This document shows positions 5,323 to 19,308 of a stretch of 64,000 bases of DNA, in pieces. Position 1 is the stretch's first letter. Each line of letters opens with the position of its first letter. The notes beneath the pieces are model-generated. The model ran no database searches. It was not told the DNA's origin and was given only the letters and a program-made list of their open reading frames with translations. Made by a program: the position numbers and the translations under genes. Origin of the DNA: Bacteroidota bacterium (lineage in GTDB: Bacteria; Bacteroidota; Bacteroidia; Bacteroidales; F082). The DNA lies in the NCBI GenBank assembly GCA_018816765.1, contig JAHIUX010000031.1, positions 19,790 through 83,789 on the forward strand, read 5' to 3'.

Positions 5323-6021
5323 TCAATCCTTGACACAGCGGACCGAGTAGCCGTAGTTTTTGTTGTAAAGCTGGTTGGTAACGTCCACATCGTCATTGCC
5401 GATATAACGGATCCAGGCCTGTTGCACATCATATTCGGTCGAAGACCACCAGCAGGCATATTCGCCAAGATAAATATACTGCCCTGTTGCCCTGCGTTCA
5501 CCTGCCGGAAGCGCCTTGAAACCAACTTCGTCAGTAGCCCCTGTGTTGGGACTGAGCCAGTGGGCCGTACCAGTTTCCTTCAGTTTTCCACCTGCAACGC
5601 TTTCGCCACCCAGAAAGCCCGTAAGGGTAGCCCAGTCGGCATCGGTTGGGACGTGCCAGCCACTCGGACATATGTTGCGGCTATCGTGAACGGCGTACCA
5701 GTTATACAGGTGTCCATAAGTTGCACCGTTGGCTGCGCTGTTGTCATAATCGCAGTAAGCTGCGGTTGACAGGGCGCTCCATGCCGTGGCATCTGTTTCA
5801 TTTACAATGGCGGAGCCGTCGCGGAACTTTGTGGTTTTCAAGTCTTCGGCCAACCAGACCTGTGTGCCAATGGTGATTGTGTGATACACATTGCCATCAG
5901 CATCGGTCACGGTGCCCGGTGTAGGATTTGAATCACTGCTTTTCTTGCAGCCGCTGTTCAGCAGCAGAATCATCCCGGTCAATGGGATGAGGAACATCAA
6001 AAAACCCGTTTTCGTTTTCAT
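5323..6021 (-). CDS. FISUMP-domain lipoprotein
   Basis: A 232-residue predicted lipoprotein with lipobox LLLNSGC (Cys25). From residue 40 onward it is a single Fibrobacter succinogenes major paralogous (FISUMP) domain: DADGNVYHTITIGTQVWLA, YGHLYNWYAV, CPSGWHVPTDADW, FKALPAGER, WWSSTE and GYSVRCVKD are the standard blocks. The domain is widespread in surface proteins of Bacteroidota and Fibrobacteres, and no biochemical activity is established. It is probably surface- or periplasm-anchored. Full-length copy, alone on its transcript as far as I can see. Confidence 0.85.
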   Translation of the reverse strand: MKTKTGFLMFLIPLTGMILLLNSGCKKSSDSNPTPGTVTDADGNVYHTITIGTQVWLAEDLKTTKFRDGSAIVNETDATAWSALSTAAYCDYDNSAANGATYGHLYNWYAVHDSRNICPSGWHVPTDADWATLTGFLGGESVAGGKLKETGTAHWLSPNTGATDEVGFKALPAGERRATGQYIYLGEYACWWSSTEYDVQQAWIRYIGNDDVDVTNQLYNKNYGYSVRCVKD

Positions 6022-6392
6022 GAATAATTGCTTTTTAGGAATAAATATGGGAAGGTTAACAGTGAATATTCACGTTCATTTGCTTTCATCCGGACCCGAA
6101 ACAAGCAACAAACCAAGCATTCCAGAAGATCTTACCCGGAACGAAAACAACTCAATGTCAGATTTTTGAAGTAAATTTATGGCAACTGAACAAGCAAAAG
6201 CAAGGAATCTGTGAAATATTTTTTCTCCATTATTTAAAACCTTGCTTTCAGGTAAAAAAACAATGCTAAAACTGGAATCGGATTAGGCTGGACGCGCATA
6301 CACGAAACCCATTCCTGCCGAAAAGCAATGAGCCATGCCTGGAAATGAAAAGGACAACCCAAACAGCGCCGAATTATGACAAAAGTCCTGGC
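6022..6392. other. Intergenic region, nothing recognised
   Basis: About 370 bases between two minus-strand genes. A 92-codon plus-strand frame overlapping this stretch is antisense to the FISUMP gene start and has no homology I recognise. No strong hairpin or repeat was seen. It should contain the promoter of the FISUMP lipoprotein gene and the 3' end of the ppc transcript. Confidence 0.4.
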
Positions 6393-8939
6393 TTAGACTG
6401 AGTTTCGGCTTGCATTGATGTTTCCATACAATGACCTGATGACAATTTTCTCGTAGGTGTCTTTTCTGGCATCTTCATCCCCTATTTTCTGCAATGCATA
6501 TTGCTGAATCACAAGCAGTGGCAGCACTATTTTCTCACGAATCTTAATTGATTCCCGCGAAACAGGTTCTTCCTCCATCAGGGCTTTGTAGCCTGAGATC
6601 AGCAGCAACATTTCCTGCGAAAGCATAAACTCATCATATAGGATCTTCCAGAAGCCACCAAACTGAGCATCGTCGCGCATATAGGCCGTCAGGGCAAAAT
6701 TCGATTTTGAAAGCGACATCATGCTATTAAGTATCAATGTCTTAAAATAAGGAACCTGGTTGAACAGTTTTTTCAGCCCGGCCAGTTTTCCCTGATTCAC
6801 CAGGGTATTGAGGGCTGTGCCGGTTCCAAAATATCCTGGTACGTTTTGTTTCAGCTGGCTCCATGAACCCACAAAAGAAATGGCCCGCAAGTCACTTAAT
6901 TCAAGCTTTTGCTTGTTGCTTCGCTTGCCGGGTCGGCTGCCAATATTGGTTTTTCCATAGTACCGCAGCGTACTTTTTTGCTCGAGGTAGGGAATAAATT
7001 TAGGGTGGGCTTTGAGCGCCTTGTATTTTTCGTAGCTCAGCTGCGCAAGTTCATCGAGGAGTGCACGGTCTTCAGCAGAAATCAGGTTTTCTTTTTCATG
7101 AATCTCGCGCGAAAGGCCAGCTGTGAGCAATTGCTCGCAGTTGTGGCGGAATTGCTCATTTGTGCCATAGCGGCTTGTAATTGTCTGTCCCTGAATGGTC
7201 AACTGGATTTCGTGATTGGCAATGGCATTGGTGTGTGCGGCATAAAAACGGTGAGCCTTGCCTCCTCCGCGTGCCGGAGGGCCACCTCGGCCATCGAAAA
7301 AGACAGCCTTAATGCCGTTCTTATCGCATATGGCTGACAGACGCTCCTTTGTATTAAAGATTGACCAGTTTGCCATCAGGTAGCCACCGTCCTTGGTGCC
7401 ATCGGAAAAGCCAAGCATGATGGTTTGTTTGTTGCCTCGCCTTATGAGGTGTTTCCTATATTCCTCAACGGCAAATAACGCTGTCATACAAGCTGAAGAC
7501 CCGCTCATGCCTTCCATGGTTTCAAATAAAGGAATGATATCGAAGCTGATGTCCTCTTCGCGATAACCACACCACCTGAACAGGGCGAACACAAACAACA
7601 CCGAAAAAGCGTCTTCAGCATTACTGATGATATACCTGTTGCAACCTTCTTCACCATTTTTTTGCTGTATCTCCTTCAGCTGCCTGACATTGCGTATGGT
7701 GTCTTTCACCAGGTCATCCGTCAACAGCTCATCATCGATGGCCGGACTGGTCGAGAGCAGCAGCTTCATCAGTTCAGGCTTTTCAAGCTCATTAAGCGAT
7801 TGCGTGATATGGCCCGACTGCATCAAAACGGCTTCCACCGTGCGATAGTGGATGCTGTGATCCTGCCTGATGTCAAGGCTCGCAAAATGGGTTTTGAAAA
7901 TATTCACCTTGTCAATCAACAGGTCAAGGTCCTTTAGGTACAGCCCGTGATAATGATCGACAACTGCTTCTCTAACCGCTAGCAAGGCTTGCAGAATTTC
8001 ACCTGCTGTCATCAGCACTTCCGGATCGAACATGGTGTTGTACAAGGCGTTGCCTAAGGCATTGAGCGTGTTTTCTGTTTCCTTGAAAGAAAGTTTCAGC
8101 TTCAGGATTTTTACATCATCATAATAGCATTTCATGAGTGTCATTCGCAGTTCGTCGGCCACCAAACGGGTGGTTTCAGCTGTCACAAACGGGTTGCCGT
8201 CACGGTCGCCACCGGGCCAGAATCCCAGCTTGATGATGTCGGTATTGTTGAAGTGAATCCGCCTTACACTTTTCTTAATGGTTGTATACAACTCACCAAT
8301 GGCCTGGTAATACACATAACGCAAAAAATAGATGATGTTTTTTGCTTCATCGAGCGGGGTTGGTTTTTTTGAGTTGATCAGTGAGGTTAATCCAAGCTGC
8401 TGCAGCGTCATATCGATCTGATCGATGTTGTTGCCACCGATATGCGCCCTCAGGGTCTGCATGATGTGCAGCACCGATTGGGGGTAGAATTGTGTTGGAT
8501 GGGCCGTAAACACAATCCTTGCACTGAAAGTTGACAGTTTCTCCCCGATTCTTTCGTGCTCGCTGCGCCTGTCAAGCAATTGAAACAGTTCCTTTACTGA
8601 CAGGCTATTGCTTTGTCGGTGTAAATCTGCGAAGGCGGCATCTTCAACACTGTCAAACAAAACAACCTGACGTTCAACATATTGAATTACCCTGAACATA
8701 AAATCAATCTTTTCCTGCTCGTTGTTAATATGGGCATACGTTTGAAAAAATGTTTCCAGGATATCGCGCGGGTTCTGGCCGGCATCAAGACCCTGTTTGC
8801 TCAGGTGAGCCAAGATCGGGATCAGCAGCCCAATATTGCTTTCCTTGCTGTAAGGAAGTTTCAGAAAAAGGCTGTTGTAGATGTCAAACTTGTTGTTGAC
8901 CAGTTTATTGAAAACACCGATACGTGTTGATTGCGTCAT
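6393..8939 (-). CDS. ppc: Phosphoenolpyruvate carboxylase
   Basis: An 848-residue enzyme that carboxylates phosphoenolpyruvate with bicarbonate to oxaloacetate, replenishing the TCA cycle and feeding fermentative succinate formation. Landmarks in order: FTAHPTQ with the catalytic histidine, GGDRDGNPFVT, the GFSDGTKDGGY block with the active-site lysine, FFDGRGGPPARGGG, and GSRPGKRS. Two places differ from the Escherichia coli type enzyme: the usual FHGRGG is FDGRGG here, and the C-terminus ends NASRNSV instead of the usual NTG. I believe these are features of a Bacteroidota branch but could not verify it. The gene is monocistronic, with about 160 bases upstream to the next gene. Confidence 0.93.
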   Translation of the reverse strand: MTQSTRIGVFNKLVNNKFDIYNSLFLKLPYSKESNIGLLIPILAHLSKQGLDAGQNPRDILETFFQTYAHINNEQEKIDFMFRVIQYVERQVVLFDSVEDAAFADLHRQSNSLSVKELFQLLDRRSEHERIGEKLSTFSARIVFTAHPTQFYPQSVLHIMQTLRAHIGGNNIDQIDMTLQQLGLTSLINSKKPTPLDEAKNIIYFLRYVYYQAIGELYTTIKKSVRRIHFNNTDIIKLGFWPGGDRDGNPFVTAETTRLVADELRMTLMKCYYDDVKILKLKLSFKETENTLNALGNALYNTMFDPEVLMTAGEILQALLAVREAVVDHYHGLYLKDLDLLIDKVNIFKTHFASLDIRQDHSIHYRTVEAVLMQSGHITQSLNELEKPELMKLLLSTSPAIDDELLTDDLVKDTIRNVRQLKEIQQKNGEEGCNRYIISNAEDAFSVLFVFALFRWCGYREEDISFDIIPLFETMEGMSGSSACMTALFAVEEYRKHLIRRGNKQTIMLGFSDGTKDGGYLMANWSIFNTKERLSAICDKNGIKAVFFDGRGGPPARGGGKAHRFYAAHTNAIANHEIQLTIQGQTITSRYGTNEQFRHNCEQLLTAGLSREIHEKENLISAEDRALLDELAQLSYEKYKALKAHPKFIPYLEQKSTLRYYGKTNIGSRPGKRSNKQKLELSDLRAISFVGSWSQLKQNVPGYFGTGTALNTLVNQGKLAGLKKLFNQVPYFKTLILNSMMSLSKSNFALTAYMRDDAQFGGFWKILYDEFMLSQEMLLLISGYKALMEEEPVSRESIKIREKIVLPLLVIQQYALQKIGDEDARKDTYEKIVIRSLYGNINASRNSV

Positions 8940-9103: not shown

Positions 9104-11191
9104 TTATTTCTTCATGAACCTTTGAACGACCCTTTCGCCCTGGGCTTCGCAGCTCAGCAGATACACTCCTTTGGCCAGGTCATGGGTATTGATCTCAACG
9201 TTCTGTTGTCCGAACAATTGCCTTTCTGAAGCCATCAACACCCTGCCGCTCAGGTCAGAAACCACAAACCGCAGCGTGGTGGGCTTGTTGAGGTTAAAGG
9301 CAACATTGAGCTGATCGCTTGCCGGATTTGGGAAAATTGCCGGTCCTGAAGCAAATAGGCCTGTTTCGGGCATACCCAGGAATACAATTTCACCATCCAT
9401 GATGAGCATATCCACACCGCTTACACTGGGGTTAGCTTCACTGAGAACAATGGTTTGAGGAATGGTGGCTTTACCCGGTATCTCAGCAAAGAGTTCATAG
9501 GTTCCGTATGGAAGTCCATTGAATGCGTAGGTTCCGTTGGCAGCTGATGTCGTCATGGTCACCGTTCCCTGATCGGCAGCGCGCAAGATGATGGGCACAT
9601 CAGCAGACCTGTCTCCGCTGTTGATGCTACCGCTGATGCTTCCGGGTCCCAGCGGGGCATTGCTCACCGGCACCAGGTGAATGTGTTTGTTGTCGGTTCC
9701 CTGTGTGAGGTTGATCACTGTGGCTTCCTCCCAATGGAGCACATCGCCGTAGTATGTTGGCAGATAATCGCCATAGTATTGTGAGTTCGGACTGGGTTCA
9801 GCCTTAACGATATACTGTGCAGCAGACATTCCCGAAAACTCGTACCATCCTTCCTGGCCAACCATTTCCGCAAAAATATCCACCACATTGCCTTCGTGCA
9901 TTTTGTAGTTGTAGGCAAATCCGGTTTCGATGGGGTTTTCGCCTGCATACACCCTTCCGGCAAGCAGATAAAATCCGCTTAACGCCACATTCAGTTCCGA
10001 AAATCCAGCTACCGCCGTTGTATCTTCAATAACGCGGGTTTGATAACCGGGCCTGGAAAATGTAACATTGTAGCTTCCCAGCTCGAGTGGCAACTCATAA
10101 AATCCACTTGCATTGGTAAACACCTGATGATCGCCCACCTGTACCCTTGCTTCGGCTATCGGGTTTCCTGTGCCGGCATCGGTTACATGGCCCATGAATC
10201 CACCGAGGTTCGGGTTCACCACATGCATCACATTGTGCAAATAGAGCGAAGGCAGTTCACCAAGGTTTGTTACACACTGCAATTCCTGCTCATAAGCTCC
10301 TGTGGTATAGCCTGTGGCATCATAAGTCACCCATATGGTTTCCTGCTGGCCAGGCTGAAGCACACCACTGGCAGGACTGACAGCGGTAATGAAATTTCTG
10401 TTCAAATCATAGCGAAGTGCCATCTGTGAATGCAGGTATTCGGCATTGTAGTTCACCTGAAGTCCCATTTCGGCATCGGATGACTGGATCCCCACTGTGC
10501 CATTGGTTGTTTCAAATGTTTCACTGATTTGCTTGTAGCGTACAACGATGGTCCCGTTCGACATCATAACGACCTGTGCACTGATGGTAGATTCCGAACC
10601 CGGGAAATGGGGGATTCGCCAAAACTCGACGATGGTGCGGTCTTCATAATTTTTGTAATACACCCTAGAAATGGCTGGGTCCATGGTCAGGTCGTCCCAA
10701 AACCAGGCTATGAAGTCATTGTTGTCGTTGTTGGTGGGAATGGGTCCGTTAAAAAATGGCATCACCGCTTCATTAAAGCTGATGCATCCATTCGAGTTGA
10801 TCCAGAAATGATTCTTTGACTGACCATAGAAGGGAAAATTGAAGGCCATTTCGAAAGGGCCAACCACATTGTCGTCGCTTAAGCCCTCCACAGGTACGCC
10901 TGTTTCGGCAATCTCGTTCCATTCGTAGTTCGGACCACCTTCTTCATCGCTGTCAATCCAGGTATATCCGTAGTCATCGGGCCCACCCTGACCTTTGGTC
11001 ACATAGCCCGGAAAGGAAAATTCAACAGGTTGCTCTGTTGCATTGCGCAGCACACTGTGAACCGTTGCTGTTTGTCCGATATTTACCGTGGCCGAGACAG
11101 CCTGCGGATCGAAGTAAAATGGCACCTGAGCATTCAGACTGGCTGAAGCAAGCAGGACGACCAGCAACAATGGAAGATAAAGATTTTTCAT
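9104..11191 (-). CDS. Large secreted protein with carboxypeptidase-regulatory-like and T9SS sorting domains
   Basis: A 695-residue exported protein. I start it at the ATG at 11191, because the signal peptide MKNLYLPLLLVVLLASASLNA begins there; a longer in-frame start at 11236 would bury it. Residues roughly 30-130 and 200-330 look like beta-rich surface domains (FWINSNGCISFNEAV resembles a nidogen-like or DUF11-type block). Around residue 335 lies a carboxypeptidase-regulatory-like domain (GHVTDAGTGNPIAEARVQVG), with another beta-sandwich near 515-605. The C-terminal 80 residues, IFPNPASDQLNV to VVQRFMKK, are a T9SS type A sorting signal. Ligand or enzymatic activity is not evident; an adhesive or structural surface role is likely. 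Confidence 0.85.
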   Translation of the reverse strand: MKNLYLPLLLVVLLASASLNAQVPFYFDPQAVSATVNIGQTATVHSVLRNATEQPVEFSFPGYVTKGQGGPDDYGYTWIDSDEEGGPNYEWNEIAETGVPVEGLSDDNVVGPFEMAFNFPFYGQSKNHFWINSNGCISFNEAVMPFFNGPIPTNNDNNDFIAWFWDDLTMDPAISRVYYKNYEDRTIVEFWRIPHFPGSESTISAQVVMMSNGTIVVRYKQISETFETTNGTVGIQSSDAEMGLQVNYNAEYLHSQMALRYDLNRNFITAVSPASGVLQPGQQETIWVTYDATGYTTGAYEQELQCVTNLGELPSLYLHNVMHVVNPNLGGFMGHVTDAGTGNPIAEARVQVGDHQVFTNASGFYELPLELGSYNVTFSRPGYQTRVIEDTTAVAGFSELNVALSGFYLLAGRVYAGENPIETGFAYNYKMHEGNVVDIFAEMVGQEGWYEFSGMSAAQYIVKAEPSPNSQYYGDYLPTYYGDVLHWEEATVINLTQGTDNKHIHLVPVSNAPLGPGSISGSINSGDRSADVPIILRAADQGTVTMTTSAANGTYAFNGLPYGTYELFAEIPGKATIPQTIVLSEANPSVSGVDMLIMDGEIVFLGMPETGLFASGPAIFPNPASDQLNVAFNLNKPTTLRFVVSDLSGRVLMASERQLFGQQNVEINTHDLAKGVYLLSCEAQGERVVQRFMKK

Positions 11192-11338
11192 GGTTTTAAG
11201 GCTGATGTTGATATGGATAAACATATTATTTCTCACAAATGTAAGTAATTTTATTCCTTGTTGTAAAGCAAGCCTTTATGCAATAAATGTGTAAGCCTTT
11301 TTCAGAATCACTATGTAGCTGAAAAATGCATATATGCC

Positions 11339-12868
11339 TTAATGCGTGCTGATGATAAAGGTGCTGCCCTTACCCGGGCTTGACTCAACCCTGATAGAAA
11401 AATGATGGGCTTCAACAATTTTAGAGACGATGCCCAGGCCGAGTCCGGTGCCTTTTTCTCCCAGTGTTCCGGTGGTGCTTGTGCGTGTGAAACCTTGAAA
11501 CAACGCATCGACAACGCTTTTCGACATACCAATCCCATTATCTTTCACATAAATTTCTATCCCACCATCAACAATCCTGCTTCCAAGGGTAATTTCACCA
11601 CCTTCGGGCGTGAATTTCACGGCATTTCCTACCAGGTTATTCAGCGCCTGACCAAACAGGGTTTCGTCGACCATCACCGGAAAAACCTCCATGCCATCCT
11701 GTTCGAAGGCCCTAACAAAGTGAATGCGCTTATTCAACATCTTCAAATGTTGCATACGTCCCACATAATCAGCCATCTGGTTCAGGTCAAGACGCTTCAG
11801 GTTGAGCTTGAAATTGCCCAGCTCCAGGTTCGACCAGTTGAACAGCTTGTCGTTATAGTCGAGCAGGCGATGCATTTCTTCATGGATCAGCGTCAGAAGT
11901 TCGTAATTGTATTGCGATAACTTTTCCTTGACTTCAGCGTCGTCCATCAATATTTCCGATAAACCAATCACCGCGCCGATGGGTGAGCGCAAGTCGTGTG
12001 AAACAATGCTTACAAACTGATCCTTAAACTGCAGCAGGCGTTTGAGTTGTTTTTCGGCCCTGGCAAGTTGATCGAGCGTCAGGCGCTGTTCGCGTGCCTT
12101 CTGAATCATCTCGTTGCCTATTTTTCCTTCTTTATTCACAGGTCTGAATATCAAATAATTGACCTGTTTGTGCCGGATGGCTGTCGCCTGCAGGTACATC
12201 CGGCGTCCGGTGAGTGTTTCTTCCTCCCAGATGCCCGACTCCACCTTGCTTTCGACGGACGTTTCCCAACATTCGGCTGCTTCGTACTGAAACACTTCGA
12301 TAAATGGGAATAATTCGGTAAGGTTAATTCGCTCAGGATCATTGAAAAGGCCTGTCTTTAATTCTTTATACCAAACTGGTATATTTCCAATCAACTGATA
12401 ATGATCGCCTTGCTTTACAAAACTCACATAGTCGAGCAGGTGGAGTGCCGAAAACGCACCTTGTCCGACCGAATCATGTTTGGCCCTCTTAATCCTAAGG
12501 CGTTCATCGTTGACTTCCTGCAACAGCTGCTGCAGTTTTTCGGCTGAGCGTGTCTGATCAACAAAAAACATCCATGTGTGCATCAACTCATCTTCCACTA
12601 TATGAATCTCCGCATAATGTCCGGTATTTGTCTGCACATGAGGCAAAACCATCGGGTTAATCAGCGGGGGCACCATGCCCATCAGATAAGGAGTCACTTC
12701 CTCGATGTGCATTGATCGGTCCGGCCTTTTCTCGAGGTATTTTTCAACCGGTCCAAACCAGTTCAACAGCATGCCAGCTTCATCCAGTTGTAACATAACC
12801 AGGCCAATATATGGCGGAATCTTGCTGATGATATAATCGGTTATGGCATCAGAAAAGCTTGTCTTCAT
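11339..12868 (-). CDS. Sensor histidine kinase, last gene of the GTPase operon
   Basis: A 509-residue soluble histidine kinase without membrane segments. Residues 1-110 and about 140-245 look like two PAS-type sensory domains, joined and followed by coiled-coil helices (110-130, 250-280). The phosphorylated histidine is His291 in the H-box SHDLRSPIGAVIGLSEIL. The ATPase domain has the N-box VGNAVKFTPEGG, the G1 box VKDNGIGM and the G2 box GTGLGLGI. There is no receiver domain and no response regulator next to it. Its start lies 14 bases after the GTPase stop, so it is very probably in the same operon, and its input could be the GTPase state instead of an extracellular ligand. Confidence 0.9.
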   Translation of the reverse strand: MKTSFSDAITDYIISKIPPYIGLVMLQLDEAGMLLNWFGPVEKYLEKRPDRSMHIEEVTPYLMGMVPPLINPMVLPHVQTNTGHYAEIHIVEDELMHTWMFFVDQTRSAEKLQQLLQEVNDERLRIKRAKHDSVGQGAFSALHLLDYVSFVKQGDHYQLIGNIPVWYKELKTGLFNDPERINLTELFPFIEVFQYEAAECWETSVESKVESGIWEEETLTGRRMYLQATAIRHKQVNYLIFRPVNKEGKIGNEMIQKAREQRLTLDQLARAEKQLKRLLQFKDQFVSIVSHDLRSPIGAVIGLSEILMDDAEVKEKLSQYNYELLTLIHEEMHRLLDYNDKLFNWSNLELGNFKLNLKRLDLNQMADYVGRMQHLKMLNKRIHFVRAFEQDGMEVFPVMVDETLFGQALNNLVGNAVKFTPEGGEITLGSRIVDGGIEIYVKDNGIGMSKSVVDALFQGFTRTSTTGTLGEKGTGLGLGIVSKIVEAHHFSIRVESSPGKGSTFIISTH

Positions 12869-12882
12869 CAGAAATTCGAGTA

Positions 12883-13380
12883 TTATTGGTTAAGCATCAT
12901 GCGGGTAAGTTGTTCAAAGGCATCTTCAACGGCAAAATTGTCGCGGGCGCTGGTTAAAATTACCTGCCAGCCTCTTTTGCGGATCGATTCAATATCGTCG
13001 TTGTTGATTTCCCAATCCTGCCTAAGGTCCGATTTATTGATCAGCACGATAAAGGGCACATCCTTGGTCACTGTTGATGCCATTTCCTGCAGCTGTAGTG
13101 CTGTTTGCAAGGTTTCGTAACGGGTTCCGTCAACCACAATGAAATAGCCCGAGGATCCGATCAGATAGGTGGGCTTCACCTTCATAAAATCATCTTCGCC
13201 ATGAATATCCCACAGCAACAATGTAACGTCTTTGCCATCGATGACGAGGTTCTTCTGGTCGATTTTAACCCCGATGGTTGTTTGGTATTTCTCGCTGTAG
13301 ATGCTGTTGACAAACCGCTGAACCAGGCTAGTTTTACCAACAGCAAAGGCGCCTACCATGGTTATTTTTTTCTTGATCAT
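12883..13380 (-). CDS. Rab/Ras-like small GTPase
   Basis: A 165-residue single-domain GTPase. The P-loop is GAFAVGKTS (residues 10-18). Switch I carries the TT pair at 34-35. The G3 motif is WDIHGED (57-63), G4 is NKSD (115-118) and G5 is TSAR (143-146). This is the Ras-superfamily layout of the prokaryotic Rup/MglA-like small GTPases, with the W-D-x-x-G typical of Rab proteins. The position equivalent to the catalytic Gln61 of Ras is Glu62, which suggests slow or partner-dependent hydrolysis. There is no C-terminal cysteine for lipid attachment. It sits 6 bases downstream of the membrane protein carrying a roadblock/longin-like domain, the usual kind of regulator for such GTPases. Confidence 0.92.
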   Translation of the reverse strand: MIKKKITMVGAFAVGKTSLVQRFVNSIYSEKYQTTIGVKIDQKNLVIDGKDVTLLLWDIHGEDDFMKVKPTYLIGSSGYFIVVDGTRYETLQTALQLQEMASTVTKDVPFIVLINKSDLRQDWEINNDDIESIRKRGWQVILTSARDNFAVEDAFEQLTRMMLNQ

Positions 13381-13386
13381 GCTTGT

Positions 13387-15105
13387 TTATTCTTCAAAAA
13401 CATTAAAACTGACCGATCGCACAGGCTGAGGCACAGGAAGGTCTTCATTAAATACGACTTCAGCCTTAAGCAGGCTCTCCGAAACACCGGCCTGACCAAG
13501 CAGTTTGATAAATGCCCTGGCTCGCTCGAGGGCCACTTTTTCATTGGCTTGTTTATTCACCGCCTTCGATGAATACGACCTGACATGGATGAGCATATTC
13601 CGGTGGTTGACAATGTTGAAGTTACCGATCTGAACTGCAGCCATGGTGAGTGAATCGAACTTCTTTTTCTGCACTGCATCCATTTCCACATCGTTGATAT
13701 CGAATGAAAACCTGTGTTTTTCGATGGCCTGGATGATCATGTTCAGATCAGGCAAATTGTTCATTATGGTAAGCGCAGCTACATCGAGCTTGTTCACTCC
13801 AACCACCCGCACATAATCAAGCTTCAGCCGGTTAATCCAGACGGCGTCCGCCTCGCCGGAAACAATCAGCACACCCTCCTTGAATGATATTAAAACCCCT
13901 TGCGGAGGTTCGAGCAGGCGAATGGCTCGCTTAACAACCATTTCCTGTTCGAGCGAGATGAACGGGGTGAAAATGAGCCGGGCATTGCTGCTATCGAAGC
14001 CAAAGCTATGCAACATTGAATCCGTGTTTAATGCTTCCGCATCACGCAGGCCGTTCAACACAAACACTCCTCCTGACATATTATTTCCTGTGATGTGAAT
14101 TCCTTGTTTTTCGTCGACATGTGTCACGAACTTGTTCCAGCGATGTCGGGTTTCAAGGTTTCGGTATATGAAAAATCCGGCAACACCTAAAACCAGCACA
14201 AGGAGTGCTATTGCAAACACCGGATTGGATTTCTGCTGCTCTTTTTTCTGTTTCTGAAGGCAGCGCTGCAAAAATTTTCCTGACAACGCAAAAGCCGAAA
14301 CATCACCATTGAATTTCTCAAAATCATACACATGGTTAAAGTGCACTGCTTCAATGGCTTCTTTCATCACTGTACGCAATTCATGTGGCGGGTTACCTTC
14401 GACAATGGCTGCAATTACCGCATGCGGACCCTGTTCGATCCAGATATTCAGTTCGCCCACATGAATGGTATCGAGTGCATCGTTGGTACCCGACTGGAAA
14501 GAATCCTTCACGAAGTCGCCAATGGCCGACAGCATCGATGCCACCATATCGCCTGCGCATGCGCCTGTTTCGCTGTCGGTTTCATGGTGCAGCAACAGGC
14601 CGGTGTTCCGGTGAATAAGAAATACTTGTTTCACCTGATAAACATAGGCTTGTGAAAGCAGCATTTCGGCGTAGGACTTCCCGGTAACCCTGGCGCTCAG
14701 GCGCATTTTCAGGTGCCTTGGCGAAAGACCGCTTTCGAGGGTTTGGTTCAGGGAGTCGATCAACTTCTTAAGGTCTTCGGCAACCGCTTTCCTGATTGCC
14801 GGCCCCATGACAGGAAACAGAATATCGGCCAGCTTTTGCGGGTTTTTCTGGATGCTTGTCTGGATGACTTCCTCGAAAAATGGCAGGAGTTCTTCTTTCG
14901 AAATTTCACCGTTCTCGATGAGTTTCCTGATGGAGAAGGGCAAAAACTCACTGATTTCGATGGCAAACTCATGCGGATCGCTCATCAGGCGATGCAGCCG
15001 TTCGAGCTCTTCCTTGTCAAGTCCGGTTAATATTTTCCGAAGCTCGTTGAGTTTTCCCCCATCGTGCATTTGTTCAAACCCCTGGCTGCGTTGGTCTCCC
15101 TCCAT
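13387..15105 (-). CDS. Membrane protein with roadblock/longin-like cytosolic domain and OmpA-like tail
   Basis: A 572-residue protein with no signal peptide and one membrane segment at about residues 295-314. The cytosolic half has an acidic helical region (20-130), then residues 158-262 with the pattern of a roadblock/longin fold: VFLIHRNTGLLLHH, a long helix DMVASMLSAIGDFVKDSF, ELNIWIEQGPHAVIAAIVEG and a closing helix ELRTVMKEAIEAVH. The outer part has BON-like alpha-beta repeats and ends in a degenerate OmpA-type segment (NEKVALERARAFIKLL), which may contact peptidoglycan. Gap to the GTPase is 6 bases, and to the upstream coiled-coil gene 7 bases. I infer it links the envelope to the GTPase. 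An alternative start at 15069 is possible. Confidence 0.75.
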   Translation of the reverse strand: MEGDQRSQGFEQMHDGGKLNELRKILTGLDKEELERLHRLMSDPHEFAIEISEFLPFSIRKLIENGEISKEELLPFFEEVIQTSIQKNPQKLADILFPVMGPAIRKAVAEDLKKLIDSLNQTLESGLSPRHLKMRLSARVTGKSYAEMLLSQAYVYQVKQVFLIHRNTGLLLHHETDSETGACAGDMVASMLSAIGDFVKDSFQSGTNDALDTIHVGELNIWIEQGPHAVIAAIVEGNPPHELRTVMKEAIEAVHFNHVYDFEKFNGDVSAFALSGKFLQRCLQKQKKEQQKSNPVFAIALLVLVLGVAGFFIYRNLETRHRWNKFVTHVDEKQGIHITGNNMSGGVFVLNGLRDAEALNTDSMLHSFGFDSSNARLIFTPFISLEQEMVVKRAIRLLEPPQGVLISFKEGVLIVSGEADAVWINRLKLDYVRVVGVNKLDVAALTIMNNLPDLNMIIQAIEKHRFSFDINDVEMDAVQKKKFDSLTMAAVQIGNFNIVNHRNMLIHVRSYSSKAVNKQANEKVALERARAFIKLLGQAGVSESLLKAEVVFNEDLPVPQPVRSVSFNVFEE

Positions 15106-15112
15106 AACTCAG

Positions 15113-15643
15113 TTATTGTGCGTCGGCTTGTGAAGTTGGTTCAGTGTGGTCAGCTTCGTCGGACACCTGCAGGGCCAGTTGCGAAAACAACACGGCCAGC
15201 GATGAGCGGTCTATCTTGGAAACCTGCACTTCGGCAAGGCGCTGAATAAACGTATCTTTAACTTCGTTGATGGCTTTCTGAAGGGCTTCAGTGGTGTCAT
15301 GATAGTGGTCGTGCAACAGCTTTCGCAGGGCATCAAACTCATTCCGGGTCTGGTCGCGGTGTTCCTGCAATCGGGCTTTTAAAAACTGCAAATCTTCCGA
15401 AAGTTGTTCCAGCTTACGTTGCTGCTCGCGCAATTCGTTTCCGGTGTTTTCGCTGATATTGCCCAGTCCGGTATGGGTATACTGCGACAATTTTTCATGC
15501 TGTTCATGCCATTTGCGGTCGGCAGCATGCAATTCATGCCTGAACTGGTCCTCGATACGCACAAATCGCTTCTCCATTTCAGTGATGTTGTTACCGATCA
15601 GAATATCCCTGATCTTCGAAATGTTTTCTGTTTCTTTCGACAT
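15113..15643 (-). CDS. Coiled-coil protein, first gene of the GTPase operon
   Basis: A 176-residue soluble protein that is mostly coiled coil between residues 15 and 140 (heptads such as REQQRKLEQLSEDLQFLKARL). Two ends look conserved: an N-terminal KIRDILIGNNITEMEKRF block and a C-terminal IDRSSLAVLFSQLALQVS block. I recall similar proteins beside OmpA-like and GTPase genes in distant bacteria, but they have no assigned function. It starts the four-gene operon, with its ATG at 15643 and an AT-rich divergent promoter region upstream. A scaffold or dimerising adaptor role is an inference. Confidence 0.75.
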   Translation of the reverse strand: MSKETENISKIRDILIGNNITEMEKRFVRIEDQFRHELHAADRKWHEQHEKLSQYTHTGLGNISENTGNELREQQRKLEQLSEDLQFLKARLQEHRDQTRNEFDALRKLLHDHYHDTTEALQKAINEVKDTFIQRLAEVQVSKIDRSSLAVLFSQLALQVSDEADHTEPTSQADAQ

Positions 15644-15824: not shown

Positions 15825-16478
15825 ATGTCAACCGATAATATACACCCCCTGATCGGCATCCGGCACCTGACCGAATCGGCCTATGTTTTGCGCATGGAAA
15901 GGCGCGGGCTCAGCTTCAGGGCGGGCCAGCACATCCTGCTTGGGAAAGCAGGAAGCATCCATAACAGGGAATATTCAGTGTACAGCGGCGAAAAGGATGA
16001 TTTCTTCGAAGTACTGATCCGTGAGGTAGATGAGGGGTTGGTGAGCAAACAGCTGAAGAAATCGATTCCGGGTGATCAGCTGCAGCTCGAAGGTCCGTTG
16101 GGATTTTTCACCATTGAACCTGAACTGATTGCCTCCGCGAAATTTCTGTTTGTGGCCACAGGGACGGGCATCGCCCCGTTTCATAGTATGGCCGGCAGTT
16201 ATCCGCAACTGAATTACACCTTGCTCCATGGCGTCCGCTGCGCGAGTGAAGCCTATGAACGTTCATTTTATGCCCCTAAACGCCACAGGCTGTGTGCTTC
16301 GGCTGAAAAGACCGGTGATTTTCATGGCCGCGTGACAGATTATTTACGCAGGCATCCGGCAACGGCCGATATGCACATTTACCTGTGTGGAAACTTCGAC
16401 ATGATCAAGGAAGTGTTCGACATTCTTGAACAACAGGGTGTTCCATCAGAACAGGTGCATGCAGAAGTGTATTTTTAA
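15825..16478 (+). CDS. Ferredoxin-NADP+ reductase-like FAD oxidoreductase
   Basis: A 217-residue flavoprotein of the ferredoxin-NADP+ reductase family. The FAD-binding motif is REYSVYS near residue 48, the pyrophosphate loop lies around GLVSKQLKK, and the NAD(P) site is ATGTGIAPF near residue 111, with the family-typical LCGNFDMIKEVFDIL near the end. There is no iron-sulphur domain, so the partner is probably a separate ferredoxin or flavodoxin. The gene is compact for the family (usually 220-260 residues). It is divergent from the GTPase operon and precedes miaB by 92 bases on the same strand. Confidence 0.88.
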   Translation: MSTDNIHPLIGIRHLTESAYVLRMERRGLSFRAGQHILLGKAGSIHNREYSVYSGEKDDFFEVLIREVDEGLVSKQLKKSIPGDQLQLEGPLGFFTIEPELIASAKFLFVATGTGIAPFHSMAGSYPQLNYTLLHGVRCASEAYERSFYAPKRHRLCASAEKTGDFHGRVTDYLRRHPATADMHIYLCGNFDMIKEVFDILEQQGVPSEQVHAEVYF

Positions 16479-16570
16479 TTGATCTAGCGGAACATAACAA
16501 GGATTAAAAAGTGGGCTTGCGGCATGCGAAAACCATTGCAACACGCAGAATCCACAAACGACTTAAACTA

Positions 16571-18016
16571 ATGAAATATCATATCATATCGTTGGGTTGT
16601 CAGATGAACCAATCGGATACCGAAAGGGTTAAAACCGTGCTTCACAGCATGGGTTACAGCCCCACTGACGACGAGCACGAGGCAAGCATACTGGGTGTTA
16701 TTGCCTGCTCAGTTCGCCAGAAAGCCATCGACAAGGTTTACAGCCGCATCGCTAAATGGAACAGGCTGAAAAACCGCAAAAACCTGATCACCTTTGTTTC
16801 GGGTTGCATTTTACCATCTGATGGCGAAAAATTCCTGAAGCTCTTCGATCTCGTTTTTCCCATGAGTGAACTGCCCGACCTGCCGCAGATGGTGAGCCAG
16901 TATGGCATTGTCACACCTTCTTCATTGCAGTTTTTCAGCGGAGAAATTGTAAAGCCCCAGCCTGTGACAAAGGACTCCGGAGCACAAGCAGGTATACTGC
17001 AGCCTGTCAGCATCAAGGGCATGCCTGCATCGCTTAAGCTCAATCCCGGAGTCGACATTGACCGTTTCTGGCATGTTGATCCAACCTACAGTTCCGATTT
17101 CGAAGCCTTCATACCGATACAAAACGGATGCGACAAGTTTTGCAGTTTCTGTGCGGTTCCATACACACGCGGACGTGAAGTGTCGCGGCCTTCAGCCGAA
17201 ATCATCGGCGAATTGAAGCAACTTGTCGAAAACGGATGCAAATCGATTACCCTGCTGGGCCAGAATGTGAACTCCTATGGCCTCGATAAAAAAGGACAGG
17301 AAGTCAGTTTCACTGAGTTGCTTCGCCTAGTTGGACAATACGGCGATGCATCGGGGCATGAGTTCTGGGTATATTTCACCTCACCGCATCCACGTGATAT
17401 GACCGATGATGTGATTGAGGTGATCGCCCAATACCGCTGCCTTGCGAAACAGATTCACCTGCCGGTGCAGTCGGGCGACGACCATGTGTTGTTGCGGATG
17501 AACCGAAAGCATTCTATGGAAAAATACAGGCATATCATGCACACCATCAGAACCTTATTGCCTGACGCCACCGTGTTTACCGACATCATTGTCGGCTTCA
17601 CCGGAGAAACTGATGAGCAATTCGAAAATACGCGAAAGGCCATGGAAGTGTTTAAATACAATATGGCATACATCGCACAATACAGCGTGCGGCCGGGAGC
17701 AGCCAGTTCGCGGTGGGAAGATGATGTGCCGGCAGATGTGAAAAAAGCACGTTATCATATCCTGTCGCAGGAACTGTTGAAGCACAGCCTGCCTTTCAAC
17801 AGGCAGCTTGTTGGCAAAACTGTCAGGGTGCTGGTGCGTGGCAACGACCGCAAGCAAGGCTATCTGTCGGCCCATACCGAAGGCCGCATCGTAGTTCGCT
17901 TTGCCGCTGATGACAACAGCCTGATCGGGCAGTTTATTGACCTCAGAATAACATCGGCCACTCCCCTTTCCGTGGAAGGCGAAATGGTGGCTGTTGATGT
18001 GGAAAAGTTGATTTGA
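16571..18016 (+). CDS. miaB: MiaB-family tRNA methylthiotransferase
   Basis: A 481-residue radical SAM enzyme that adds a methylthio group to N6-isopentenyladenosine at tRNA position 37. I start at ATG 16571 because MKYHIISLGCQMN is the conserved N-terminus; the GTG at 16511 would add 20 unconserved residues. The auxiliary cluster cysteines lie in GCQMN, ACSVR and SGCILP; the radical SAM triad is CDKFCSFC, and the MiaB-type LLGQNVNSYG follows. A C-terminal TRAM domain is present. The linker between the N-terminal and radical SAM domains is longer than usual by some 40 residues. It is followed two bases after its stop by mtaB. Confidence 0.88.
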   Translation: MKYHIISLGCQMNQSDTERVKTVLHSMGYSPTDDEHEASILGVIACSVRQKAIDKVYSRIAKWNRLKNRKNLITFVSGCILPSDGEKFLKLFDLVFPMSELPDLPQMVSQYGIVTPSSLQFFSGEIVKPQPVTKDSGAQAGILQPVSIKGMPASLKLNPGVDIDRFWHVDPTYSSDFEAFIPIQNGCDKFCSFCAVPYTRGREVSRPSAEIIGELKQLVENGCKSITLLGQNVNSYGLDKKGQEVSFTELLRLVGQYGDASGHEFWVYFTSPHPRDMTDDVIEVIAQYRCLAKQIHLPVQSGDDHVLLRMNRKHSMEKYRHIMHTIRTLLPDATVFTDIIVGFTGETDEQFENTRKAMEVFKYNMAYIAQYSVRPGAASSRWEDDVPADVKKARYHILSQELLKHSLPFNRQLVGKTVRVLVRGNDRKQGYLSAHTEGRIVVRFAADDNSLIGQFIDLRITSATPLSVEGEMVAVDVEKLI

Positions 18017-18018
18017 CG

Positions 18019-19308
18019 ATGAAAAAAATTGCATTCAAAACACTGGGCTGTCGCCTAAACCAGTATGAAACTGATGCGTTGGCATCGCGTTTTCACACAG
18101 GCAGCTACGAGCTTGTCGACTTCAACGAAGCCGCTGACATCTATATCGTGAACACCTGCACCGTGACCAACCAAAGCGACCAGAAATCGCGGCAGACCAT
18201 CAGCCAGGCCCGAAAAGCCAACCAGGATGCCGTGGTGGTGGTGACTGGTTGTATGGCCAACAACCACAAGCAGTCGCTGCTCGAAAACAGCAACATCAAT
18301 TATGTGGTCGACAATGAGCGCAAATCATCACTTTTCAGTATCATCGAGTCCCATTTCAGGGGCGAAGTGGCTGATCCGGAAGGATTCGACAAAGACCTCT
18401 TCAGCTACGATGCAGCTTACAAGACGTTTCACACCCGCAGCATGATCAAGATTCAGGATGGCTGCGACAACTTTTGTACCTTCTGCATCATTCCGAAGGT
18501 ACGCGGGCGGGCAACCAGCCGGCCGGCAAAGGCCATATACGACAACATCAGGGAAGTAATTGATTATGGTTTTAAGGAAGTGGTGCTCACCGGCGTAAAC
18601 ATTGGGCGTTATGGCGACGGCGCCATGAACTTTGAGCGTTTGGTTGAAAACATCCTTGATATTCCGGGCGATTTCAGGCTGCGTATTTCGTCCATCGAGC
18701 CCGATGGGTTCTCGGAACGCTTTTTCGAGCTGTTCGATCATCCCAAATTAAGTCCACACCTGCACCTTTGCCTGCAAAGTGGTTCTGAAGATACTCTGTT
18801 AAAAATGAGGCGTATGTACACTGCCCGCCAGTTCAGGGAGATGGCCGAACAGTTGCGTAAACGCTATCCCGATTTCAATCTCACCACCGACATCATCGTT
18901 GGTTTCCCAGGCGAAAGCGAAGCAGACTTCGCACAAACGGTTCATATGGCCCGCGACCTTGCTTTCAGCCATATACACACCTTCAAATACTCAGTCAGGA
19001 GTGGAACGCGCGCCGAACGTATGCCTGAACAGCTCAACGAGAAAATAAAAAACCAACGCAGCGAAGTGATCCGCAAAATTTCGGACGAAAACAAGCGTGC
19101 ATACCTTGAACAAATGGCCGGAAAACAAGAGCGCCTGCTCATCGAACGCATTGGTTCCGATGGCATCGCACGTGGCTATGGCGAACATTATTTTCCTATC
19201 AGGTTGAAGAACAAAACATTGGCAAGAAATCAATTTGTCGATGTGGTGGTGGGCACAGTGCATGAAGGCAAGGAACTATCCGTCATTGGAAATATGAAAA
19301 CGCAATAA
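18019..19308 (+). CDS. mtaB: MtaB tRNA t6A37 methylthiotransferase
   Basis: A 429-residue radical SAM enzyme that converts N6-threonylcarbamoyladenosine at tRNA position 37 to its 2-methylthio form. The start ATG at 18019 lies two bases after the miaB stop; an upstream TTG is unnecessary. Cysteines of the first cluster are in LGCRLN, NTCTVT and TGCMAN; the SAM cluster motif is CDNFCTFC, followed by the diagnostic TGVNIGRYG. The C-terminal TRAM-like region is somewhat short. Tandem with miaB, so two different A37 thiolations are encoded as one transcript. Confidence 0.92.
   Translation: MKKIAFKTLGCRLNQYETDALASRFHTGSYELVDFNEAADIYIVNTCTVTNQSDQKSRQTISQARKANQDAVVVVTGCMANNHKQSLLENSNINYVVDNERKSSLFSIIESHFRGEVADPEGFDKDLFSYDAAYKTFHTRSMIKIQDGCDNFCTFCIIPKVRGRATSRPAKAIYDNIREVIDYGFKEVVLTGVNIGRYGDGAMNFERLVENILDIPGDFRLRISSIEPDGFSERFFELFDHPKLSPHLHLCLQSGSEDTLLKMRRMYTARQFREMAEQLRKRYPDFNLTTDIIVGFPGESEADFAQTVHMARDLAFSHIHTFKYSVRSGTRAERMPEQLNEKIKNQRSEVIRKISDENKRAYLEQMAGKQERLLIERIGSDGIARGYGEHYFPIRLKNKTLARNQFVDVVVGTVHEGKELSVIGNMKTQ

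Follow-up and report, generated by a model that had tools for sequence, protein, structure and literature searches.

A Group 1 Rup operon of a Bacteroidota bacterium that joins a predicted membrane-anchored longin domain, a Rab-like GTPase and a soluble histidine kinase

Rup GTPases are described as the prokaryotic group closest to Rab/Ran/Ras/Rho, and up to 2014 none of them had been characterized or had a known regulator (Wuichet and Sogaard-Andersen 2014, PMC4316618). That paper described, as the Group 1 Rup neighborhood, a gene set encoding a coiled coil, a protein with a cytosolic domain, a transmembrane helix and an OmpA part, a Rup GTPase lacking the Gln of its G3 motif, and an output protein with a conserved N-terminal region (a kinase or a GGDEF/EAL fusion), with no coupling to an MglB homolog. 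A membrane signaling system analogous to the conservon was proposed, as was a Gln supplied in trans; an invariant Gln was noted in the output proteins, the cytosolic domain was left unnamed, and the GTPase-activating protein (GAP) was unknown. We analyzed a locus at positions 11,339 to 15,643 of the window (a stretch of 64,000 nucleotides from contig JAHIUX010000031.1 of a Bacteroidota bacterium) that, by genes and motifs, matches every Group 1 Rup feature tested. A prior annotation made from the letters of the DNA (the sequence-only reading) had treated the set as having no published function. The set itself is published in PMC4316618; a literature search on Rup systems and bacterial longins, in which subscription papers and preprints were thinly covered, returned that paper, a mention in PMC4915359 and no functional study, and within this literature the gene set is of a published, uncharacterized kind. 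In the reading that we favor, to which we assign a rough probability of 55% for the chain as a whole, a predicted longin anchor would control the Rab-like GTPase and the GTPase would set the kinase via PAS-like modules; the GAP, scaffold and wall-sensor alternatives weighed below partly overlap it. What is added here, as far as the literature searched goes, is the assignment of the longin domain, the joint occurrence of longin protein and GTPase, a soluble minimal form and two adaptor modules. The elements of the locus are the following.

15113..15643, minus strand: predicted coiled-coil-type protein, first gene, 176 aa (open reading frame (ORF) call)
13387..15105, minus strand: membrane protein, 572 aa, with helical N-terminus, predicted longin domain, one transmembrane helix, BON-like and OmpA-like parts
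14683..15105, minus strand: N-terminal helical region, residues 1-141 (AlphaFold2 model, block predicted local distance difference test (pLDDT) 57-81 after residue 10)
14242..14643, minus strand: predicted longin domain, cytosolic, residues 155-288
14164..14226, minus strand: transmembrane helix, residues about 294-314 (hydropathy; model helix 296-332)
13756..14109, minus strand: BON-like periplasmic region, residues 333-450 (Foldseek)
13393..13755, minus strand: OmpA/Pal-like periplasmic domain, residues 451-571 (predicted fold)
12883..13380, minus strand: Rab-like small GTPase, 165 aa
11339..12868, minus strand: soluble histidine kinase, 509 aa
12482..12868, minus strand: module A, PAS-like, kinase residues 1-129, ending with conserved Gln117/Asn120 (profile, model)
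12038..12457, minus strand: module B, PAS-like, kinase residues 138-277, ending with conserved Gln256/Arg259 (profile, model)
11822..12025, minus strand: HisKA dimerization/phosphoacceptor domain, residues 282-349 (Pfam PF00512, E 4e-9)
11351..11668, minus strand: HATPase_c catalytic domain, residues 401-506 (Pfam PF02518, E 9e-24)

The cytosolic part of the membrane protein (residues 155-288) was predicted to adopt a longin/roadblock-type fold by an AlphaFold2 model (block pLDDT 59-92 over the domain) and structure comparison, and the longin order of elements (two strands, helix, three strands, two helices) was found in the prediction; the longin assignment itself rests on that one model together with an hhalign profile-profile comparison. 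The domain looks closer to a longin than to an MglB-type roadblock. The sequence-only reading had placed a roadblock/longin-like domain at residues 158-262, which structure prediction upheld as a prediction. The MglB-type domain Robl_LC7 was without a match in the four proteins (Pfam scan) and in the source genome (96.8% complete, E <= 0.001), just as Group 1 Rup systems are not coupled to an MglB homolog. Pfam and NCBIfam scans returned no family naming the longin-like domain, and a search of PDB sequences with the whole membrane protein was discarded, its two matches (E 0.65-0.76) being meaningless. Hydropathy analysis found one stretch over threshold in this protein, with a maximum of 2.77 at 296-314 and 19-residue windows over threshold starting at 291-300, and none in the other three proteins. 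A lysine-rich stretch ahead of the helix fits an N-in/C-out orientation.

The GTPase matched Pfam Ras (E 6e-30), and its nearest PDB sequences are Rabs, the closest being Rab23 (E 5e-22), so its earlier assignment as a small Rab-like member of the Ras superfamily was borne out. Its G1 (GAFAVGKTS), G2 (Thr35), G4 (NKSD) and G5 (SA) motifs are intact, and its G3 motif (WDIHGE) is without the catalytic Gln, a position held by Glu in 58, Asp in 14, Gln in 2 and other residues in 10 of 84 loci. Asp58, Gly61, Asn115-Lys116-x-Asp118 and Ala145 were invariant in 29 rows, and the protein has no C-terminal Cys. Since it has the nucleotide-binding motifs but no catalytic Gln, the GTPase would switch slowly and depend on help for hydrolysis.

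When GTDB species genomes were scanned with the membrane protein, 237 related places were returned, and the best 80 were kept as loci. Because the GTPase gene lies adjacent downstream of the membrane protein gene in 74 of the 80 (anywhere in the locus in 78) and a coiled-coil-type gene adjacent upstream in 77 (a count from a profile that may match partly by composition), the gene set is not a chance one, and the coiled-coil-type protein is a conserved partner of it. Module A or B follows in 69 of the 80, or 63 of the 70 loci with >2.5 kb downstream. Going by record titles, the loci came from Bacteroidota (43, one labeled Chlorobiota), Acidobacteriota (15), Cyanobacteria (8), Desulfobacterota (4), 'Deltaproteobacteria' (1), Gammaproteobacteria (2), Planctomycetota (2), Gemmatimonadota (2), Nitrospirota (1), SAR324 (1) and one labeled Actinomycetota on an 'Acidobacteria' scaffold, and most of them are metagenome bins. 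The reverse test covered 395 genomes of the phylum; the handles listed in both scans were identical, and the 361 of the 395 that were not listed were not comparable by name. GTPase matches (profile E <= 1e-25) and longin matches (longin-domain profile E <= 1e-6) fell in the same 14 genomes of 11 genera, none having only one; in the opposite direction, the GTPase was present in 11/11 genomes selected by the longin protein. The chance figure for this co-occurrence, 10^-25, overstates it, the genomes being related. Both the neighborhood scan and the matched presence in 14/395 genomes agree with the conserved neighborhood that the sequence-only reading had put forward.

In 8 of the 14 genomes the two genes lie side by side in the same direction, in 3 (G701, G558, G669) they are nearby but divergent, and in 3 of one genus (G495, G511, G588) they are on different contigs; sensor and switch can thus both be retained without being neighbors. 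G701, the only one of the 14 with two GTPases, also has two longin proteins. It could be argued that the operon is ancestral only and that GTPase and kinase serve unrelated pathways, since the link between these two proteins is drawn from gene content; we regard this as very improbable, given that GTPase and longin share the same 14 of 395 genomes, including the three with separate contigs, and that modules A and B follow the GTPase before unrelated catalytic domains in several phyla. In those three genomes (loci L154, L155 and L142), the GTPase, a module-A protein and a module-B protein cluster on another contig than the longin membrane protein. At two loci of Desulfobacterota/'Deltaproteobacteria' (L097, L098), the coiled-coil-type and longin genes have a GTPase farther off that is transcribed divergently (ORFs of 204 and 212 aa), and neither module turned up downstream of the longin gene. 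A search among genomes of the same order gave 5/198. A class search with the whole membrane-protein profile matched 173/295 genomes, a count that was dropped because most listed matches were OmpA ends only; among the matches listed, at least 8 genomes reach the cytosolic half (G000, G366, G454, G280, G198, G376, G312, G346). No ORF with both GTPase and membrane-protein labels appeared among the matches listed (48/86 loci), in work that included no search aimed at fusions.

A stripped-down form was found in other Bacteroidota (L012, L013, L014, L148/L157 and L149/L158), in which a longin protein of about 250-304 aa, without transmembrane helix and OmpA end, adjoins the GTPase. The N-terminal helical region is also matched in these soluble versions (profile positions about 10-250), and 67 proteins, query included, matched the L012 longin protein. 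Soluble longin and GTPase occur together in G766, G591, G280, G198, G376, G346 and G312. After the GTPase, L012 and L013 have a stand-alone protein of 138-139 aa, and L014, L157 and L158 have a kinase. In profile-profile comparison the five N-termini matched module A at 96.5% (E 7e-10) vs 11.6% for module B, and a two-sequence profile gave 89.6% (E 2e-6) vs 3.3%; with the plain module-A hidden Markov model, the 138-aa protein of L012 returned nothing at E < 0.05, and its identity as module A is kept on the profile-profile comparison. These sequences suggest a common core of longin protein, GTPase and module A, with the envelope part as an add-on. The soluble versions also bear on an alternative in which the GTPase cycles by other means and the longin, as an effector or scaffold and not an exchange factor, only holds the GTP-bound GTPase (and the kinase) at the membrane or at a given place in the cell, much as MglA/MglB-type polarity modules do. 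Roadblock/longin platforms do act as scaffolds as well (PMC10933270), Ragulator/LAMTOR rows appeared in the structure comparison, and for a GTPase without a C-terminal Cys the membrane protein would be the obvious anchor. However, soluble longins co-occur with the GTPase, so membrane tethering cannot be the sole job, and we consider this alternative rather unlikely.

The output protein carries HisKA and HATPase_c and no transmembrane stretch, as expected for the soluble histidine kinase named in the sequence-only reading. Pfam placed no family over cut-off on its modules A and B; their PAS-like fold was judged by how the elements follow one another in the model, as the structural alignment rows covered the kinase core. 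Among the fetched loci, profile A was found in 57 proteins and profile B in 68, never overlapping; both modules share one ORF, as in the window kinase, in 40/80 loci and are on neighboring genes elsewhere. In 24 output proteins, a chosen subset scanned with Pfam, module A was fused to a class III cyclase (L080, L106, L117, weakly L154) or a PAS domain (L085), and module B to a kinase core (L080, L078, L117, L154), a hybrid kinase with receiver and Hpt (L081, L099, L110, L118), a hybrid kinase without Hpt in an ORF cut by a contig end (L101), GGDEF-EAL (L105), an HD domain (L083, L092, L093) or a sigma-54 activator (L104). One G-protein front end is combined in this way with many classes of bacterial output enzyme.

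For the invariant Gln of Group 1 Rup outputs there are two candidate positions in the kinase, the Gln ending module A (kept in 55/57) and that ending module B (65/66, with its Arg also 65/66). These residues suggest an alternative in which the longin protein or the Gln of a kinase front module acts as GAP; the GTPase, lacking a Gln of its own, would then rest in the GTP-bound state, and the signal would be ended by envelope input. Consistent with this idea are the G3 Gln in 2/84 loci, the near-invariance of the module Gln, the proposal of a Gln in trans with an invariant output Gln (PMC4316618) and the description of MglB as both GAP and exchange factor (PMC11016934). The model, on the other hand, puts the conserved Gln in the helix after each module and not in a recognized finger, and the GTPase of the soluble system L012 (2252-2758) keeps a catalytic Gln of its own (WDIAGQ) while its module-A partner keeps the conserved Gln too. 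We judge the GAP alternative unlikely.

In the periplasmic half, Foldseek ranked BonA (6v4v) and Rv0899 (2l26) first and second for the BON-like region, with a large root mean square deviation over more than one domain, and a planctomycete homolog (L086) gave a sub-threshold Pfam BON match. The Pfam OmpA match of the 572-aa protein was weak (E 0.0078, 17.0 bits vs a cut-off of 27.2); structure comparison predicted an OmpA/Pal-like fold for the C-terminal domain. In Acinetobacter baumannii OmpA, D271 and R286 are reported to be critical for association with diaminopimelate (PMC6572160). The corresponding Asp position is Ser513 in the window protein (codon 13567-13569), and the Arg 15 residues on is kept as Arg528 (codon 13522-13524), with the spacing of A. 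baumannii OmpA. Among 92 chosen rows, in which two pairs are one protein twice (L005/L095, L008/L112), the Arg was present in 91; the Asp was present in 30 of 34 non-Bacteroidota rows vs 6 of 58 rows taken as Bacteroidota (45 of them database proteins assigned by similarity to the window protein), and 48 of those 58 have Ser or Asn. This pattern suggests that the canonical peptidoglycan contact is probably not used in this clade. The sequence-only reading had the OmpA-like part contact the cell wall, in a version in which it would sense wall state or distance. The predicted OmpA/Pal fold, the retained Arg528 with its spacing and the Asp of the non-Bacteroidota rows speak for that version, but wall contact is doubtful here because of Ser513 at the Asp position, where the A. 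baumannii residues are critical, and because some Bacteroidota are without the OmpA part; we find the wall-sensor version improbable. The L086 membrane protein (5917-8652) has 911 aa, an over-threshold OmpA match and an enlarged BON/OmpA end; a beta-lactamase-superfamily gene separates it from its GTPase (9868-10365), which is encoded on the other strand.

In the favored chain, with the longin anchor controlling the GTPase, the BON/OmpA-like part would read some envelope state, and the change would cross the single transmembrane helix to the longin domain. That domain may be a dimeric GTPase platform and most likely an exchange factor, by analogy with TRAPP, Mon1-Ccz1, Fuzzy-Inturned and MglB; we prefer this role since guanine nucleotide exchange is said to be the main activity of roadblock/longin platforms (PMC10933270). 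Gene content suggests that the GTP-bound GTPase docks on module A, the piece of the output that is still there in its most reduced form and hence the candidate docking site, and that module B is a signal-transmitting PAS beside the kinase. The kinase would pass its phosphate to a response regulator encoded elsewhere, none being among the four genes. The earlier outline of an envelope-state sensor, a GTPase switch and a kinase output keeps support from the predicted longin, the Rab-like GTPase and the conserved set, and is weakened in its cell-wall contact.

Several observations weigh against this chain. A shared fold is not the same as exchange activity, as longins are also found in SNAREs, adaptors and GAPs. 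The longin assignment comes from a single AlphaFold2 model plus a moderate profile-profile score, and the longin-domain profile matched no chain among PDB sequences at E <= 10. Neither module A nor B lies downstream in 11/80 loci, 7 of them with >2.5 kb of sequence, and 6/80 are without a counted adjacent same-strand GTPase: the contig ends at L082, the GTPase of L118 is present in an ORF that overlaps beyond the limit, those of L086, L097 and L098 are on the opposite strand, and none was seen in the locus at L116. The soluble longin genes of L015 and L016 had no GTPase in the 1.5 kb fetched, and their genomes hold one. The paired glutamines of L012 speak against a simple trade-off in which the Gln is supplied in trans.

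As had been read from the letters, the four minus-strand genes are closely packed, and the ORF coordinates confirmed gaps of 7, 6 and 14 bases. The product of the first gene is charged, rich in Glu, Leu and Gln, helix-rich and without a transmembrane stretch by hydropathy; "coiled coil" is the label of the sequence-only reading and of PMC4316618. Its Thymidylate_kin match (27.9 bits, cut-off 27) was rejected as a composition artifact of a helix-rich protein. The closest titled relatives in the GTDB species-genome scan were Bacteroidales bins, at ~50% identity. Directly downstream of the kinase, 9104-11236 on the minus strand encodes a likely secreted protein of 710 aa, whose domains are nidogen-like and carboxypeptidase-regulatory-like and whose C-terminus is a sorting tail for type IX secretion (Por_Secre_tail). 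On the other side, 15825-16478 encodes an oxidoreductase with FAD- and NAD-binding domains, beside two consecutive methylthiotransferase-like ORFs of 501 and 431 aa (16511-19308, plus strand), which from their sequences we take to be MiaB/MtaB-like.

On a broader interpretation, the locus would represent a true bacterial longin-Rab module of about nine phyla, in which the nearest bacterial relatives of eukaryotic Rab/Ras GTPases have a transmembrane longin as their exchange factor and two PAS-type adaptors link the module to sigma-54 activators, c-di-GMP enzymes, cyclases and kinases; we consider this tentatively, at somewhat less than even odds. If true, the combination of a longin platform with a Rab-type switch would not be an archaeal-eukaryotic specialty, and it would serve envelope signaling, not vesicle traffic. 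A candidate regulator (the longin), a candidate reader (module A) and small soluble versions open the system to direct tests with purified proteins, and they bear on the idea that the roadblock/longin families arose in archaea (PMC10933270).

Relative to the described Group 1 Rup systems, the available text of PMC4316618 does not mention a longin fold, two separable modules or cyclase, HD and sigma-54 outputs, and its wording "often followed by" already permits versions without the transmembrane and OmpA parts. In MglA/MglB, too, a small GTPase of bacteria goes with a protein of the roadblock/longin superfamily, as is predicted here, but the partner in our locus is longin-like and membrane-anchored and has no Robl_LC7 match. 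MglA departs from the conserved G3 Asp, whereas the GTPase here has Asp58; membership in that family was rejected on this residue and on the missing Robl_LC7 in four proteins and genome. Actinobacterial conservons (AGPS, CvnA-D) are also operons of a histidine kinase, a GTPase, a roadblock-superfamily protein and a small partner (PMC13343842); there the kinase does the sensing and CvnB is a roadblock of MglB type, whereas here the longin is in the membrane protein and the kinase is soluble. Membership was rejected in this case as well, with no Pfam match to an MglB-type CvnB or DUF-type CvnC in the four proteins. Rv0899/ArfA (Foldseek rank 2) and other transmembrane-BON-OmpA proteins have the same periplasmic half, BON-like then OmpA-like, and to our knowledge no cytosolic longin domain or GTPase operon. 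With the longin-platform Rab exchange factors TRAPP, Mon1-Ccz1 and Fuzzy-Inturned (for Rab23), the locus shares the predicted longin fold and a Rab-like GTPase; unlike them, it is bacterial, it has a single predicted longin in each chain, joined to a transmembrane helix and an OmpA-like end, and it is without a sequence-level PDB match, its exchange activity being proposed by analogy. With the additions made here, longin-Rab regulation gains a bacterial counterpart that can be put to the test.

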